From Arenicellales bacterium (lineage in GTDB: Bacteria; Pseudomonadota; Gammaproteobacteria; Arenicellales; JAHEKD01), in NCBI GenBank assembly GCA_028284225.1, contig JANQSD010000001.1, positions 1 to 64,000 of the forward strand: a stretch of DNA of 64,000 nucleotides. Direction: 5' to 3'. Within the stretch, counting starts at the first letter, position 1, and every line of letters starts with the position of its first letter. The translations under genes were made by a program, and so were the position numbers. This document shows, piece by piece, positions 23,663 to 63,831 of this stretch. Below the pieces are notes generated by a model, which did no database searches, was not told where the DNA came from, and was given only the letters and a program-made list of their open reading frames with translations.

Positions 23663-24154
23663 TTGAAGTTACTATTACTGAAGGCTTTGATCTTACTGGC
23701 TGCATTGGCAGTCTCTAGTTGTGCTACCAAATCGGAAACAACAGATCACCATGAACTAAGGCTGCAATCAAATGTAGTTGCGATTGTATCAGAAGGGCCG
23801 TTGGAACCACGGAGCTTAGGAAGTTACAGTTTAAGAATTTATCAGATTTTAGATCCAAAGTATCCTTATGACAATTATGTTGCTGGAATGCTTGTTCCAC
23901 GAGATGGTTCGATTGAGGCATTGAAGGCTAAGGATATTAATGGCGACGGTGTAGAGGAGATAATCGTAATCACTCGAGTTGCCGGGTCAGGATCTTACAT
24001 CTCTGCTGTGGCTTACGAATACAACGGAGAGAAATTAAATGTCATTGCTTCAGTTAATGATCTTATGCCTGATATAGACCCCATCGAATCTTTGCTGTCG
24101 GCCTATAATGAAACATCAAGCTCCAATGAGCCTCCTGTAAGTCAAGACCAATAG
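23663..24154 (+). CDS. Putative PliI-like lysozyme inhibitor lipoprotein
   Basis: A 163-residue lipoprotein: hydrophobic signal followed by lipobox AVSSC with cysteine 20. The mature part has PRSLGSYSLRIYQ, GMLVPRDGSIEALKAKDING and RVAGSGSYISAVAYEY, a pattern I recall from PliI-type inhibitors of invertebrate lysozyme and their bacterial relatives; the DINGDG segment resembles a calcium-binding loop. Such proteins protect the cell wall in the periplasm. The start is TTG at 23663, set by AGGAAG six bases upstream. Family assignment is from memory of the motif and should be treated as moderate. Confidence 0.6.
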   Translation: MKLLLLKALILLAALAVSSCATKSETTDHHELRLQSNVVAIVSEGPLEPRSLGSYSLRIYQILDPKYPYDNYVAGMLVPRDGSIEALKAKDINGDGVEEIIVITRVAGSGSYISAVAYEYNGEKLNVIASVNDLMPDIDPIESLLSAYNETSSSNEPPVSQDQ

Positions 24155-24288: not shown

Positions 24289-25329
24289 TTATTTTGATTG
24301 ACTGCGCCACTCAAGGAACCTTTCGTTGATAATATCTTGCAATGTTTCATGCCAGTTATAATCCAGCCAAATCGCGTTTTGCATATTCTTTTTATAAGTG
24401 GGCACGAAAACCAGAACCTGGCCAGCTTGAGGGAGTAAGCTTAGTGTTTTCAAGGTTTGTCTGTTAGTCGGACCGAAAGCATACTCGTAAGCTAGTTTGA
24501 ATTGAGCCGAATCAGACATAAGTTTCAGTAATAGTTGTTGGGCCTGATCGGTGTTTGTGGAGTTGTTATTAATACCCAGGTTCATTTCAACGACTAGTTG
24601 ACCATTCCACAGAATTTCCATGGGATGATTAAACTGCAAATCGTAAAATACGTTGTGTGGTCCGGCAGCTAACGACACTTGATTGTTTTCGATCAAGGCT
24701 TTTAGTTCTGTAACATCTTTCCACCAATGAGTATGCCGCTTTATGGTATCTAATTTGGCAAAGGCCAGTTTGATGCCCCGCTCTGTACTGAGTAATTGGT
24801 AAACTTCATTAATCGGAATTCCATAGGATAGTAGGGCCCATTCCAATGTGCCTATCGGGCTATCAGGCAATGCCCGCATGCCGGGGAATCGTTCGACATC
24901 AAATAAATCTGCTGCTGATTCCGGGCGTGTAGTCACCATATTAAATATCGGATAGGCGATTACCATTGAATAAGTGGCAAAATTTACGCCGCAATTATTG
25001 TTGTTTTTTTGTAAAAAATTTCTTCGCTGAAATAGCAGTTTGAATTCGTCAATGTCTTTTAGCCTGACGATTTGTTGGTTGCTGCAGGCTACATCTGCCT
25101 GGGCCGAGTTAAGGCTGACTAAATCAAACTTTTTGTTGAAGATATCTGTGTTATTACTATCAAGCTTCACTTCCATTTCGGTGATCGACTGTAACGTTGT
25201 TTGCAAGTTATCAAGATCAAAACCATTTTGGTTAGCTTGAGTTAAATTGATCGTTATTTGTGCATGACTTATTGAACCGAATAGCAAACAAGTCAGAGAG
25301 ATTAAAAGCTTGAGGCTGATGTGTTTCAC
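24289..25329 (-). CDS. Periplasmic solute-binding protein, PotD-like (orphan)
   Basis: An ABC-type extracellular binding protein of 346 residues with a signal peptide (about 1-23, ending ISHA). The stretch LFDVERFPGMRAL followed by GTLEWALLSYGI resembles the family that binds polyamines or similar cations (SBP_bac_8 clan). No ABC permease or ATPase gene is adjacent. Instead it starts with GTG on the stop codon of the ClC gene (GTGA overlap), so it is translated with a ClC protein. It may serve a distant ABC system, or have been recruited for another role. The ligand is unknown. Confidence 0.65.
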   Translation of the reverse strand: MKHISLKLLISLTCLLFGSISHAQITINLTQANQNGFDLDNLQTTLQSITEMEVKLDSNNTDIFNKKFDLVSLNSAQADVACSNQQIVRLKDIDEFKLLFQRRNFLQKNNNNCGVNFATYSMVIAYPIFNMVTTRPESAADLFDVERFPGMRALPDSPIGTLEWALLSYGIPINEVYQLLSTERGIKLAFAKLDTIKRHTHWWKDVTELKALIENNQVSLAAGPHNVFYDLQFNHPMEILWNGQLVVEMNLGINNNSTNTDQAQQLLLKLMSDSAQFKLAYEYAFGPTNRQTLKTLSLLPQAGQVLVFVPTYKKNMQNAIWLDYNWHETLQDIINERFLEWRSQSK

Positions 25330-27071
25330 AGGTTTTCCTCTTGCCTCAACGTCGAAGTGGTGTCCAGATAGGCCTTAATAATTGTAGATTCGTGTACGAT
25401 GCCAAGCATTCTTTTTGATTCGTTATCCTCAAGAACCGGGATGCTCTCACCGACAAAGTTCTCTATTCCATTCATGGCTTCCCAGATGGTGTTCTCTTGT
25501 AGCAGATAAAATCCATTTTGATCAACATGAGTGATAACACTTTGCTCCATATCTTCACCTTTATCAATCAATGCCGCCAATTTCACCAGGCTGATGCTGC
25601 CGCTAAGTATTGAGTTTTCATCTAACAAGTAAGCCTCAGTGGCATCAGCCTTAATCATGCTGCGCCGGGCTTGCCCTAGTGTGGTATCTGCTGTGATCGG
25701 ACAAAAATCATCGCTAATATAAGGTTTGATTTGTTTGATATTTAATACAGCCTTGTCTCGCCCGAGACCCAGATCAACGCCTCGATTTAGCAGCACCTTG
25801 TCAAACAATGAGCGGCCAAACAAGCGGTAAGCCACGATGTTGGATAACACAACACTGACCATGGCAGCTGTGGTAATACTGTAGTTGCGGGTTAGCTCAA
25901 GTACAATAATTATTGTCGTCAATGGTGCGCCGATCACCGGGCTGGTCACTGCCACCATGCCGCAAATTGTATAGAAAACCAATTCCGAACGTTCGATGCC
26001 GGGAATTTGATTCGCTATTATCCCGCACAATGTGCCAAACATGATGCCGGTAAAAACAGCTGGGCTGAACACACCCCCCGCAAAACCAAAGCCCAAGCAA
26101 AGCCCCGTCAACAAAATTTTCATGACCAGTAAAGTTGATAATTCAACACTGGTAAAAGCACCATCAATGGTTGCCAATCGGATCGCTTCTTTGCCGACCC
26201 CCATAACGTCCGGAAGCCAAAGTGCTGCTACGCCAACAGCAAAGCCAGCCATCATGGGTTTAAATACTTGATGTACGTTTAAGGTTTGGCTTAAACGCCC
26301 AAAATACAAAATGCTTTGCATAAATAGTTGTGCAACGATAGCACCGCATAAGCCAATTAATCCAAACAGCACAAACTCCTGTGCACTAGCCGTGTTGACA
26401 ATGCCGATCGAAAATAAAGGTAATTTGTCAAAGAATTGATTGGCGATAACAAAACCTACCGTCGACGCGACTGTAACAGGTGCAAAAGCACGTAACGAGT
26501 AGTGCCGCAGAATAACTTCATGGACGAATACAACACCGGTTATGGGTGCATTGAATACTGTCGATATTGCCGCAGCTACACCGCAGCACAAGGCAATATT
26601 ATCGTGATAAAACCTGTTGCCGGTGGTTTTAGCAATAGCAGTTCCGATGCTGCCGCCTAAATATGCAACAGGGCCATATTGGCCGACAGATGCGCCACAA
26701 CCCAGAGAGATCAGACTTGCCAGAATATTTACGAATCGGTTCCATAATGACTGGTCGTGGGAATGGCTTAGAGACTCCGAAATGATGTCTGCAACAGATT
26801 GAGGTCTTTTTTCCCGAGTTAAACGCCATATCAACCATCCAACAACGAGTCCGCCCAGTGAAGGGACGAGTAGCGTTGCTGAAGTTAAAACTACGGGATT
26901 AGTTGTTAAAGCTCTACTTTTTGCGGATACTTTTAACCAGTCGTTTAGAATAAAAATAAGTTCGATAAATCCAATTGAGGCAAGTGAGGCCAGTGCGCCG
27001 ATGATTGTGCCTAAAATTAGGGTGGTGCCTATAGATCCCAGTGTGGCACTGAATGTACTGTTTTTATCCAC
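25326..27071 (-). CDS. ClC-type chloride channel with CBS pair
   Basis: Voltage-gated-chloride-channel family protein of 581 residues: ClC membrane domain (about 15-430) and a C-terminal CBS pair (about 455-570). Conserved parts include GGVFSPAVFTGIMFG (selectivity filter) and GAPLTTIIIVLELTRN. The usual GREGP segment reads GQYGP at 130-134, so the gating glutamate (E148 in E. coli ClC-ec1) is tyrosine. In the helix aligned with FIIEEM, the proton glutamate E203 is valine (FVHEV, V186). The first filter motif GSGIP is also absent. The protein should therefore be uncoupled from protons, a channel or an unusual transporter. It overlaps the downstream binding-protein gene by four bases. Confidence 0.9.
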   Translation of the reverse strand: MDKNSTFSATLGSIGTTLILGTIIGALASLASIGFIELIFILNDWLKVSAKSRALTTNPVVLTSATLLVPSLGGLVVGWLIWRLTREKRPQSVADIISESLSHSHDQSLWNRFVNILASLISLGCGASVGQYGPVAYLGGSIGTAIAKTTGNRFYHDNIALCCGVAAAISTVFNAPITGVVFVHEVILRHYSLRAFAPVTVASTVGFVIANQFFDKLPLFSIGIVNTASAQEFVLFGLIGLCGAIVAQLFMQSILYFGRLSQTLNVHQVFKPMMAGFAVGVAALWLPDVMGVGKEAIRLATIDGAFTSVELSTLLVMKILLTGLCLGFGFAGGVFSPAVFTGIMFGTLCGIIANQIPGIERSELVFYTICGMVAVTSPVIGAPLTTIIIVLELTRNYSITTAAMVSVVLSNIVAYRLFGRSLFDKVLLNRGVDLGLGRDKAVLNIKQIKPYISDDFCPITADTTLGQARRSMIKADATEAYLLDENSILSGSISLVKLAALIDKGEDMEQSVITHVDQNGFYLLQENTIWEAMNGIENFVGESIPVLEDNESKRMLGIVHESTIIKAYLDTTSTLRQEENL

Positions 27072-27128
27072 TATTGATTTTTCTCTGTCGATGCCACTGT
27101 ACTAGATCGGTTTCACTCAGGCAATAAA

Positions 27129-27158
27129 AAAGGCGTTGTGGTTACCCACAACGCCTTT
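27129..27158 (-). terminator. Terminator of the outer-membrane protein gene
   Basis: A 13-bp stem AAAGGCGTTGTGG / CCACAACGCCTTT with a 4-base loop, followed on the minus strand by a T-rich tract (TTTTTATT). It lies 18 bases after the stop codon and separates this gene from the ClC gene. Confidence 0.9.
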
Positions 27159-27175
27159 TACAAAACTAGCTTTGC

Positions 27176-28336: not shown

Positions 28337-29692
28337 TTAAGTCAGTAACTGCTTATAGGTTTTATCAAGTGCTATTGCCGCCTTTTCAATTAACTCATCG
28401 ATTTGATCATGACTAATAACCAATGGCGGTGAGATAATCATGGTGTCACCGACTGAACGCATAACCAGACCATTCTCGATACAGTTTTTGCGGCACTCAA
28501 ATCCTAACGTGCCCTTGTTATCAAAGCGTTGACGTGATGACTTATCCTTGACCAGCTCCAGAGCTCCAATCAAACCCGTTCCGCGGGCTTCAGCTACTAG
28601 AGCATGATCCCCAAGTTCTTGCCAGCGTTTTTGTAAATATGGGCCAACATCGTCTTTTGTTCGTTCGACTAGATTTTCTTTTTGCATGAGTTTTATATTT
28701 GCCGTTGCTACCGCACAAGCAGCAGGATGGCCGGAATAAGTAAAACCATGGGTGAATTCTTCACCTTTTTCTGAAAGCAGATCAGAGACTCTTTTGCTAA
28801 TCATCACCCCGCCGATAGGCAGGTATCCAGAAGAAAGGCCTTTAGCAATCGGCATCAAATCCGGCTCAAGTTGGTAATAGTCACTTCCAAACCATTTACC
28901 AAGTCGCCCGAATCCGCAAATGACTTCATCAACGACCAGCAGGATATCATACTTGTTACAAATTTCTTTTATTCGTGGCCAATAGGAAGCTGGTGGGACG
29001 ATGACCCCACCAGCGCCTTGGATGGGTTCAGCTACAAAAGCAGCAACCCGTTCCTCTCCAAGCTCCTGAATCTTATCTTCAAGTTGATTGGCGACTTGCA
29101 AACCGAACTTTTCCAGATCAATGTTCGGGGCCTGCTCAAAGCTGTACGGTTGATCAATATGGGCAAAGTTAGGCAAGGGTAGTCCACCTTGTTTATGCAT
29201 ACCAGGCATACCACCCAGGCTGGCGCCTCCTAGCGTACTGCCGTGGTAGGCATTCTTGCGGCTAATGATAATGTTTTTGTTTTTTTCACCATTGAGTTCC
29301 CAATAAAAACGCGCAGTGCGAATTACCGTATCATTGGCCTCAGAACCGGAATTCGTGAAGAAGACTTCTTGCAGGTTTGCTGGCGTGATATCTGCCAGGA
29401 TTTTTGCTAATTCAATTGCAGGTGGATGTGTGCATTGAAAAAAACTGTTGTAATAGGGCAGTTGCTTGAGTTGTTCTGTCGCCGCATCAATCAGTTCTTG
29501 GCGCCCGTAACCTACATTGACACACCAAAGCCCAGCCATACCATCAAGAATTTTATTGCCGTCAGAATCCCATAGATAAACATTTTCAGCTTTGCTGATG
29601 ACACGGCTGCCAGCTTTACTGAGTTGCTTATGGTCAGTGAAAGGGTGGCGAAAATGTTGGCTGTCAAGTTCTTGTAAAAGGCTGGTTTTCAT
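28337..29692 (-). CDS. spuC: Putrescine-pyruvate aminotransferase (SpuC-like)
   Basis: Class III PLP aminotransferase of 451 residues, likely moving the amino group of putrescine to pyruvate and giving 4-aminobutanal. Family features include LDGMAGLWCVNVGYG near residue 48, FFTNSGSEAND (PLP phosphate region), VVDEVICGFGRLG and the lysine of PIAKGLSSGYLPIGG, closest to SpuC and related omega-amino acid transaminases. ATG at 29692 is chosen although the frame is open 43 codons further upstream inside the preceding gene. It starts 10 bases after the glutamine-synthetase-like gene, which makes glutamylputrescine, so both belong to putrescine breakdown. Another omega-amine could be the substrate. 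Confidence 0.85.
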   Translation of the reverse strand: MKTSLLQELDSQHFRHPFTDHKQLSKAGSRVISKAENVYLWDSDGNKILDGMAGLWCVNVGYGRQELIDAATEQLKQLPYYNSFFQCTHPPAIELAKILADITPANLQEVFFTNSGSEANDTVIRTARFYWELNGEKNKNIIISRKNAYHGSTLGGASLGGMPGMHKQGGLPLPNFAHIDQPYSFEQAPNIDLEKFGLQVANQLEDKIQELGEERVAAFVAEPIQGAGGVIVPPASYWPRIKEICNKYDILLVVDEVICGFGRLGKWFGSDYYQLEPDLMPIAKGLSSGYLPIGGVMISKRVSDLLSEKGEEFTHGFTYSGHPAACAVATANIKLMQKENLVERTKDDVGPYLQKRWQELGDHALVAEARGTGLIGALELVKDKSSRQRFDNKGTLGFECRKNCIENGLVMRSVGDTMIISPPLVISHDQIDELIEKAAIALDKTYKQLLT

Positions 29693-29702
29693 AAAATCTA
29701 CT

Positions 29703-31040
29703 TCATACATTGAGTAATAAATGTTCACGCTCCCATGAACTGATAACGTGCAAAAATGCTGCGTGCTCTGATTCTTTGACAGAGGTATAGGCATTGACGA
29801 AACCGTTGCCGAGTAAATCAACTAAAGGCTGACAGTCTCTCAGCCGATTTACAGTCTCTTCTAAACTGCGCGGTAAACTAGACTCCTGCTCATAACCGCT
29901 GGTTTCCAGAGCCGCAGTAGGTTTGATTTTTTCCTTAATGCCCAAATATCCGCATGCCAGTGTTGTGGCAATAGCAAGATAAGGGTTAATGTCCGCACCT
30001 GCCAGGCGGTTTTCAATGCGCCGATTCTGTGGGTCAGAAAAAGGGATGCGCAAACCTGTAGTGCGATTATCATACCCCCAGAGTAAATTGATCGGGGCAG
30101 ACATATAAGGTGTTAAGCGCCGATACGAATTAACATTCGGGGCAAGTAAACACATGGCTTCCGGCAAGTATGTCTGCAGCCCACCAAGATACCAATAAAA
30201 CTCATCGCTTTCTTCACCGTTTTCTCGGGCGAACAGATTTCGGCCAGTTTGATTGTTAACAATACTCTGGTGAATATGAAAAGCGCTGCCAGGTTCACCT
30301 TCCATCGGTTTGGCCATAAACGTTGCGTAAATGTTATGCCGTAATGCTGTTTCACGCACGGTGCGCTTAAACAAAAAGGCCTGATCTGCCAGCTCGAGAG
30401 GTGCACCATGCAGCAGATTCACTTCGAGTTGTGCTGCTCCCATTTCATGAATTAATGTGTCGATGGCCAGGTCCTGCGCCTCGCAATAATCATAAATATC
30501 TTCAACTACCGGGTCAAATTCATTAACTGCATCGATGCTGTAAGACTGGCGGCTGGATTCTTGTCTGCCAGAGCGACCTATGGGTGGCTCCAGCGGGTAA
30601 TCGGCATCAGTATTCTTTTTCACCAGGTAAAATTCGAGTTCCGGAGCAATAATAGGCTGCCAGTCGTGATTGCTGTATAGGTCACAGACTTTTTTAAGTA
30701 ATTGTCTCGGGGCCAGATCGTTTGGTGTGCCGTCTGCACTAAAGGCATCATGAATTAATAAAGCAGTCGGGTCGGTGGCCCATGGGACCAAACGCCTTGT
30801 GCTTAAATCGGGTTTTAAAAGCATATCACCGTCATTTGGTGGCATTATTTCCTCATAATTGTCTGGATAATCACCAGTGACGGTTTGCATAAATATAGAC
30901 TGGGGCATGCGCATGCCGGCCTCTTCGCTATATTTGTGGGCGGGGATTAACTTTCCTCTGGCAATGCCAGACATGTCAGGAATAATAGCTTCAACTTCGT
31001 CAATATTGTGTTGCTTAAGCCATTCACTTAACGGTTGCAT
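29703..31040 (-). CDS. puuA: Gamma-glutamylputrescine synthetase-like (glutamine synthetase family)
   Basis: A glutamine synthetase fold enzyme of 445 residues that probably ligates glutamate to putrescine, as PuuA in E. coli and SpuI in Pseudomonas. Visible motifs are IIAPELEFYLV (metal glutamates), GAAQLEVNLLHG, GSAFHIHQS (catalytic histidine) and NRLAGADINPYLA. The opening DEVEAIIPDMSGIARGK is typical of the GlnA-like polyamine branch rather than of housekeeping GlnA, which also carries a tyrosine adenylylation site not seen here. It heads a two-gene operon with the aminotransferase. Confidence 0.85.
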   Translation of the reverse strand: MQPLSEWLKQHNIDEVEAIIPDMSGIARGKLIPAHKYSEEAGMRMPQSIFMQTVTGDYPDNYEEIMPPNDGDMLLKPDLSTRRLVPWATDPTALLIHDAFSADGTPNDLAPRQLLKKVCDLYSNHDWQPIIAPELEFYLVKKNTDADYPLEPPIGRSGRQESSRQSYSIDAVNEFDPVVEDIYDYCEAQDLAIDTLIHEMGAAQLEVNLLHGAPLELADQAFLFKRTVRETALRHNIYATFMAKPMEGEPGSAFHIHQSIVNNQTGRNLFARENGEESDEFYWYLGGLQTYLPEAMCLLAPNVNSYRRLTPYMSAPINLLWGYDNRTTGLRIPFSDPQNRRIENRLAGADINPYLAIATTLACGYLGIKEKIKPTAALETSGYEQESSLPRSLEETVNRLRDCQPLVDLLGNGFVNAYTSVKESEHAAFLHVISSWEREHLLLNV

Positions 31041-62924: not shown

Positions 62925-63764
62925 TTGTCAGAAAATGTAGCAGCATTACAAACAGAGAATGCTGATCACCAAGTGGGTGATTCTGTCGTCACAAATGAAG
63001 CTATCGCTGCACTAGAAATAAAGGATATTCATAAAAGGTTCGGTGACCTTGAAGTTTTAAGAGGAATTTCCTTAACAGCCAATGACCACGATGTTATTTC
63101 TATCCTCGGTAGTAGTGGTTCAGGAAAAAGCACTTTTCTACGCTGTATTAATTTACTGGAAACACCAACCAGTGGAGAAGTAGCAGTTTATGGCGAGATG
63201 ATAAAAATGAAACAGGGCAGGAACGGCCCTGAGGCGGCTGATAAAGAGCAAGTGCAGCGAATCCGCAGTCAGTTGGCAATGGTTTTTCAGCAATTCAATT
63301 TGTGGGCGCACATGACAGTATTGCAAAATGTTATGGAAGCACCGTTGCACGTTCTAAAGTTGAGTAAGGCTGATGCCAGAGAAAGAGCAGAGAAATACAT
63401 CGAACGGGTAGGGATGATTGATCGCAAAGATTTTTATCCTTCTCAGTTATCAGGTGGACAACAACAACGCGTCGCCATCGCTAGAGCACTGGCAATGGAA
63501 CCTAAAGCTTTATTATTTGATGAGCCGACTTCGGCTCTTGATCCAGAGCTGGTTAATGAAGTTTTGAAGGTAATGCGTACCTTAGCTGAAGAAGGACGCA
63601 CGATGTTGGTTGTTACTCATGAAATGGGGTTTGCACGAGAGGTCTCAGATCGGGTTATTTTCCTTCATCAAGGTAGAGTTGAAGAGAATGGTTTGCCCGA
63701 GCAGGTTTTTGATGCACCAAAATCACAACGATTTAAAGATTTTCTTTCAGGTAATCTGAAATAA
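62925..63764 (+). CDS. Amino acid ABC importer, ATPase (HisP/ArtP/AotP type)
   Basis: ATPase of a polar-amino-acid importer, 279 residues. Walker A is GSSGSGKST, the signature [16 protein letters not shown], Walker [13 protein letters not shown], and the D-loop and H-loop (VVTHEM) are intact. The insert [17 protein letters not shown] is of the kind seen in histidine/lysine/arginine/ornithine importers. TTG at 62925 is chosen because GGAG lies seven bases upstream and the promoter -10 box covers the upstream ATG. About 30 unconserved residues precede the ABC domain. Next to the Ast operon it likely imports arginine or ornithine. Confidence 0.9.
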
Positions 63765-63831
63765 AGGGGTTTTGACCTGACAGATTTTACATTTTAATAT
63801 TTATCTATCTACATGTTAATCAGGAGTTTTT

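Follow-up and report, generated by a model that had tools for sequence, protein, structure and literature searches.

A PotD-type binding-protein gene overlapping a ClC gene forms a conserved two-gene unit and may encode a periplasmic subunit of a tyrosine-type ClC

What does a soluble periplasmic binding protein (SBP) do when its gene begins inside the stop codon of a ClC-family anion transport gene? The question is raised by a locus in a 64,000-nucleotide stretch of an Arenicellales genome, hereafter the window. Both open reading frames, their coordinates, their shared strand and the GTGA overlap of the SBP start with the ClC stop agree with the original prediction (Table 1). The ClC matches Pfam Voltage_CLC at E 7e-71 (239.7 bits against a gathering score of 24.8), with a weak CBS match, and misses the NCBIfam equivalog cut-offs for ClcA (160.1 of 350 bits) and ClcB (118.6 of 425), scoring 237.6 of 482 bits for PRK01862. 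The ClC gene of a relative (locus L049) has an ATG at the same place as the window's GTG start. The SBP matches Pfam SBP_bac_8 at E 4e-17 (63.4 bits against a gathering score of 27), and by-eye inspection of its N-terminus showed no lipobox. A gene for a PliI-type periplasmic lysozyme inhibitor (23663-24154, plus strand; Pfam E 2e-34) runs convergent with the pair.

Table 1. Features of the ClC-SBP locus, in window positions
Feature	Position	Strand	Remarks
ClC-family anion transport protein	25326..27071	-	581 aa; C-terminal CBS-like part; GTG start
PotD-type (SBP_bac_8) periplasmic binding protein (SBP)	24289..25329	-	346 aa
GTGA overlap	25326..25329	-	SBP start GTG + ClC stop TGA
AGAGG, Shine-Dalgarno-like, within ClC 3' end	25337..25341	-	read from sequence
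Predicted Sec signal peptide of SBP (residues 1-23, ...SHA/Q)	25261..25329	-	by eye
Terminator hairpin, 14-pair stem + U run, upstream of pair	27115..27170	-	folding: -24.9 kcal/mol, z -4.99
ClC residues 291-306 (K-L linker by EcClC alignment)	26154..26201	-	strongest paired-specific conservation
ClC residues 40-55 (helix B end / B-C loop)	26907..26954	-	second paired-specific patch
ClC residues 207-222 (towards I-J linker)	26406..26453	-	third, weaker patch
Tyr132 codon replacing external (gating) glutamate	26676..26678	-	VGQYGP vs EcClC LGREGP
SBP residues 179-197 with R184, L188	24739..24795	-	E/D and R in ABC/BCCT-linked relatives

A hairpin upstream of the pair, revealed by folding and overlooked by a simple terminator scan, terminates the gene before it, which makes a separate transcript for the pair probable. 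Translation of the SBP from within the ClC gene would hold both proteins in proportion. Upstream of the pair, at 28337-31040 on the minus strand, lie a glutamine-synthetase-like gene and a class III aminotransferase gene, possibly of polyamine catabolism; the former scores under the gamma-glutamylputrescine synthetase cut-off. We dropped a conserved link between these genes and the pair, since the terminator lies between them and the neighbors differ in other genomes.

The original prediction carried the concern that the pair might be confined to one species, and it is not: the pair is present in 73 genomes from seven families, and on one Octadecabacter arcticus plasmid. Within the window's order, ClC relatives (E ≤ 1e-20) were found in 75 of 109 genomes and SBP relatives (E ≤ 1e-5) in 71 of 109. 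Thirteen genomes from four families carry both genes adjacent on the same strand (13 of the 30 with a retrieved ClC locus), and their SBPs are the 13 top SBP matches. Class-wide samples of 369 genomes each contributed two of the three genomes of a further family, f166, and a phylum-wide sample of 398 genomes contributed members of families f196 and f182. When these two families were searched, 40 of 161 f182 genomes and 20 of 160 f196 genomes had the ClC at E ≤ 1e-140. Profile search followed by junction analysis placed the pair at 64 of 65 loci (13 in the window's order, two in f166, 30 of 30 in f182, 19 of 20 in f196), and the total of 73 adds nine f182 genomes judged by coordinates. Pairing at L203, and at several high-GC loci where antisense reading frames mask the SBP, rests on the profile search; a metagenome-assembled Gammaproteobacteria bacterium (L010, JAHEKD010000310.1) shares its layout with the G041 contig and was counted once. 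The plasmid pair, on pOA238_118 of O. arcticus 238 (Alphaproteobacteria), consists of WP_015497669.1, annotated as a chloride channel, and WP_015497668.1, a hypothetical protein, with a 14-nt overlap. This ClC is 40% identical to that of the window; its SBP is very divergent, with no Pfam match and a profile match over 68 columns only (probability 92.6%).

The junction itself is conserved. The SBP gene overlaps the ClC stop in 64 of the 65 loci examined, and an in-frame ATG gives an overlap of exactly 14 nt in 54 of the 64 junctions, where the start was chosen in the order 14 nt, 4 nt, nearest whenever several were possible. The remaining junctions use GTG at 11 nt (three), GTG (two), ATG (two) or TTG (one) at 4 nt, and ATG at 8 nt and at 35 nt (one each), the window belonging to the 4-nt group. 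Most junctions have a purine-rich, Shine-Dalgarno-like stretch within the end of the ClC gene. A chance overlap is excluded by this recurrence, by the shared 14-nt length and by the co-occurrence of the two genes in f182. Among the 161 genomes of that family, 39 carry both genes (paired-type SBP at E ≤ 1e-114), one carries the ClC alone, and 121 carry neither (Fisher p 1e-36, relatedness ignored); all 39 co-carriers have the genes adjacent on the same contig and strand. No f182 genome has a paired-type SBP without the ClC. The reverse state exists in three genomes with two-gene near relatives: G891 of f182, G1160 (L188) and G467, in which the ClC is followed directly by an msrA-like gene, the one that stands behind the SBP in G372. 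Retention of the ClC in these genomes indicates that the SBP is not essential to it. The ClC of G1160 (L188 / L208) equals that of G1078 in the tree (branch length 0), with the SBP gene missing; its end runs into a tandem dipeptide repeat, and an assembly error may explain the absence.

Could the SBP belong to an ABC importer? As the original prediction held, ABC membrane genes are lacking nearby: a search of the window with its own genome's potABC-type genes returned just two ATPase-like stretches, at 2036-2836 and 63006-63770. When the potABC-type and BCCT genes of the window's genome were used to query 76 paired loci, some being longer stretches of the same genomes, ABC genes lay near one (L060), in a separate operon with its own SBP. 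Linkage to an ABC permease elsewhere, a second concern attached to the prediction, was seen for no SBP of the paired clade as its own neighbor; it is the relatives outside the clade that are ABC-linked. In a tree of 89 rows, a branch with SH-aLRT support of 100 splits 64 paired SBPs from 25 others, of which 19 lie beside an ABC ATPase and/or permease, two (from the window's genome) lie beside a BCCT transporter, and four (L075, L083, L086 and L119) are unmatched and carry the "ABC" label in the tree by default. Paired SBPs thus have no adjacent permease or ATPase of their own and fall outside the ABC-linked side of the tree. We also ruled out that the window SBP belongs to the potABC-type operon on its contig, as that operon's own SBP lies in another clade. 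We consider it very improbable that adjacency reflects co-expression only, with the SBP either a relic or working for a chemoreceptor or for an ABC importer encoded far away. A same-family ABC system does lie about 17 kb beyond the window, though with its own SBP; the separate clade, the same overlap across many families, and the lack of any paired SBP without a ClC in the 161 genomes argue against this account.

The pair is an isolated two-gene unit whose surrounding genes, identified by eye, vary by lineage. A betaine link was rejected: genes resembling betaine catabolism (by eye) lie beside the pair in some f196 genomes and are absent in other lineages. At one paired locus (L199), TRAP-like genes, named by eye, with their own SBP lie 2.7 kb off; the paired SBP's partner is the ClC rather than DctQ/DctM. 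Genome G262 carries another, distant ClC-like gene immediately upstream of its pair (L206:4274-6046). The window's genome also has two further PotD-type SBP genes directly upstream of BCCT transporter genes (L007:8412-11177, on C1, and L008:6233-9005, on C12; Pfam BCCT E 2e-170 and 1e-167), where the SBPs adjoin secondary transporters instead of ABC permeases.

What sets the paired ClCs apart? At the position of the external glutamate, all 65 have tyrosine (64 GQYGP, one GHYGP), whereas the 67 unpaired rows, which are those retrieved by our searches and are not phylogenetically independent of the paired set, comprise 35 with glutamate and 32 with tyrosine or histidine (one, GPYGA, by motif). 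None of the 35 sampled glutamate-bearing ClCs is paired, and 32 of the 97 Tyr/His-type ClCs lack an SBP. In the ClC tree the paired label requires six changes, against 44 in shuffles; this tree was built with FastTree and the SBP tree by a quick search, and both contain long branches, foremost L193 in the latter. In several genomes a second Tyr-type lineage without an SBP stands behind ubiE-ubiJ-ubiB-like genes, named by eye (L061, L062, L063, L066), and an unpaired Tyr-type ClC of G026 closely follows a BCCT-family gene (L067:627-3820). The internal glutamate (E203 of EcClC, E185 in the window) is kept in 65/65 paired, 31/31 unpaired Tyr-type (L188 excluded) and 35/35 Glu-type proteins. The Ser107 position is proline in 62 of the 65 paired ClCs, 16 of the 31 unpaired Tyr-type ClCs and none of the 35 Glu-type ClCs, 34 of which have valine or isoleucine there; the window ClC has valine. 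Set against the marks of an antiporter, the window ClC lacks the external glutamate of GREGP and retains the internal one. CLC-ec1 E148Q catalyzes downhill Cl- transport (PMC7253180), and a neutral residue at the external glutamate therefore fits a passive pathway. By this analogy, the paired Tyr-type ClC is probably a passive anion pathway without proton exchange.

If the SBP contacts the ClC, a conserved surface would be expected on the side facing it. Ten of the 28 ClC positions conserved in paired but not in unpaired Tyr-type proteins fall in residues 295-310, and a position shuffle reproduced the clustering in 0 of 2000 trials (relatedness ignored). All three patches of Table 1 lie, we assume from EcClC helix names and topology, on the periplasmic side. 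When variability was ranked by percentile in sets of similar divergence, the B-C window reached the 94th-96th in the two unpaired sets, Tyr-type and Glu-type, compared with the 50th in the paired set, and the K-L window reached the 85th (unpaired Tyr-type) and 35th (Glu-type), compared with the 21st-26th in the paired set. The I-J window differs little between paired and other sets. Judged from these alignments, this is the trace expected of a docking surface for a periplasmic partner.

The paired SBPs also differ from their ABC- and BCCT-linked relatives. With Octadecabacter excluded, R184 and L188 are each present in 63 of 63 paired SBPs; the other 25 have E or D (21 of 25) and R (25 of 25), respectively. 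R188 is invariant in ABC-type SBPs and is also carried by BCCT-linked ones, so it is not a clean mark of ABC docking. A profile of the paired SBPs matches 8JV1 (E 5e-71), MotA 5L9G (7e-52) and the GABA-binding protein 4EQ7 (4e-43) in the PDB; judged by titles, the nearest solved relatives of the canonical paired SBPs bind polyamines, GABA, and mannopine or other opines. The 61 canonical paired SBPs keep WGG.Y, NGRFF, W251 and Y285.P.R, residues that we infer by analogy to line the ligand pocket. Most of this set is gone from the window SBP and from that of its genus mate, and the Octadecabacter SBP has departed further still. A structure predicted for the window SBP, with one relative as input, was discarded (pLDDT 34). 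With so many canonical residues lost, the ligand of the window SBP may be different or absent, and the window's pair may be a ligand-gated arrangement turned to a structural or other purpose.

These residues bear on two further accounts. The main rival to a gating role is SBP-dependent transport, in which the SBP captures an anion (or zwitterion) and hands it to the ClC. Its genomic evidence is of the same kind as that given for TAXI-GltS (PMC12344293), the canonical paired SBPs retain their full set of conserved residues, WGG.Y and NGRFF included, and the proline at the Ser107 position suggests that selectivity may have changed. We nevertheless judge delivery unlikely: a passive pathway would be unable to concentrate an anion against an inside-negative potential, the nearest solved relatives are not binders of inorganic anions, and many conserved SBP residues are gone in the window's genus and in Octadecabacter. 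Less probable again is an account in which transport by the Tyr-type ClC is coupled in some other way and not passive, while the SBP, with no ligand role, serves assembly or stability as Ostm1 or barttin do for mammalian CLCs. Retention of the internal glutamate in every paired ClC is compatible with this, as is the erosion of SBP residues in two lineages that keep the overlap, but mere stability would not need the strong residue conservation of the 61 canonical SBPs.

We propose, with a slight preference over the accounts above taken together, that the two genes form a conserved unit in which an uncoupled ClC has the SBP as a periplasmic subunit dedicated to it, most likely acting in gating and not in substrate feeding. 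The ClC-SBP partnership is well supported by gene order and co-occurrence; gating by the SBP, its ligand and the ion carried are what we infer. A ClC without the external glutamate would carry anions passively, and a soluble SBP that has departed from ABC systems would serve as its dedicated partner, docking from the periplasm onto the ClC dimer at the B-C, I-J and K-L regions. Opening or closing of the SBP, whose ligand in the canonical lineages would be amine-like, would raise or lower anion flow. A subunit suits the data better than a substrate shuttle because the canonical residues are eroded in the window's genus and in Octadecabacter while the overlap is kept. The original proposal, that the SBP works with, or senses a ligand for, the ClC pathway, is supported in part: an orphan SBP is tied to the ClC with no ABC partner. 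The ligand may or may not be an anion; the amine- and polyamine-binding relatives of the canonical members and the eroded residues of the window SBP lead us to favor sensing or gating over delivery of an anion. More tentatively, and with the odds somewhat against it, the pair may represent an anion channel of a new, two-component type, a ligand-gated proteobacterial anion conductance in which a ClC devoid of the gating glutamate takes its gate from a soluble polyamine-family SBP.

Is such a system known? It had been suggested that the pair matches no described system, and this holds within the literature searched, which left most subscription journals outside its scope: neither a ClC-SBP pair nor a soluble partner of bacterial ClCs was described there. 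The closest precedent is TAXI-GltS of Bordetella pertussis, where TAXI SBPs are proposed to hand substrate to GltS (PMC12344293). There too, a secondary-transporter gene is overlapped by the gene of an SBP whose usual membrane partner is missing, and the arrangement recurs in distant bacteria; the ClC-SBP pair likewise shows the conserved adjacency and translational overlap expected of an SBP-dependent secondary transporter of the TAXI-GltS kind. TAXI-GltS differs in its protein families, a TAXI SBP for glutamate and a Na+/glutamate symporter, and in its known fusions (PMC12344293), of which none was noticed for the ClC-SBP pair. The ClC-SBP pair would extend the emerging theme, exemplified by TAXI-GltS, of SBPs separated from their usual importers.

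By sequence, the paired SBPs belong to the same family as the PotD/SpuD-type amine-binding proteins (8JV1, MotA 5L9G, GABA-binding 4EQ7), but these are listed mostly as ABC binding proteins, and the paired SBPs form a clade of their own with R184 and L188 where the other SBPs of the tree have mostly E/D and R. The paired ClCs share with the H+/Cl- exchanger EcClC (CLC-ec1) the Voltage_CLC family and the internal glutamate; unlike EcClC, they have tyrosine at the external glutamate, and GSGIP is replaced by a GPPD-like motif or SVAD. EcClC is not known to have a binding-protein partner. Bacterial ClCs serve as structural models for the whole family, and the pairing of an SBP with ClCs devoid of the gating glutamate would connect binding-protein biology to anion channels.

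Mammalian ClCs, too, can have accessory proteins dedicated to them, as in ClC-K/barttin and ClC-7/Ostm1. As unrelated membrane proteins, barttin and Ostm1 differ from the soluble SBP of the ClC pair. Like the paired ClCs, ClC-K, the partner of barttin, has no gating glutamate, the position being Val166 (PMC10135884). The ClC-SBP pair would offer simple bacterial proteins for testing periplasmic ligand control of an anion pathway. GluR0-type channels, in which a binding-protein domain is fused to a K+ channel, provide a parallel to the proposed gating of an ion channel by a periplasmic-binding-protein fold. They are fused and cation-selective, whereas the ClC pair comprises two separate proteins and an anion pathway.
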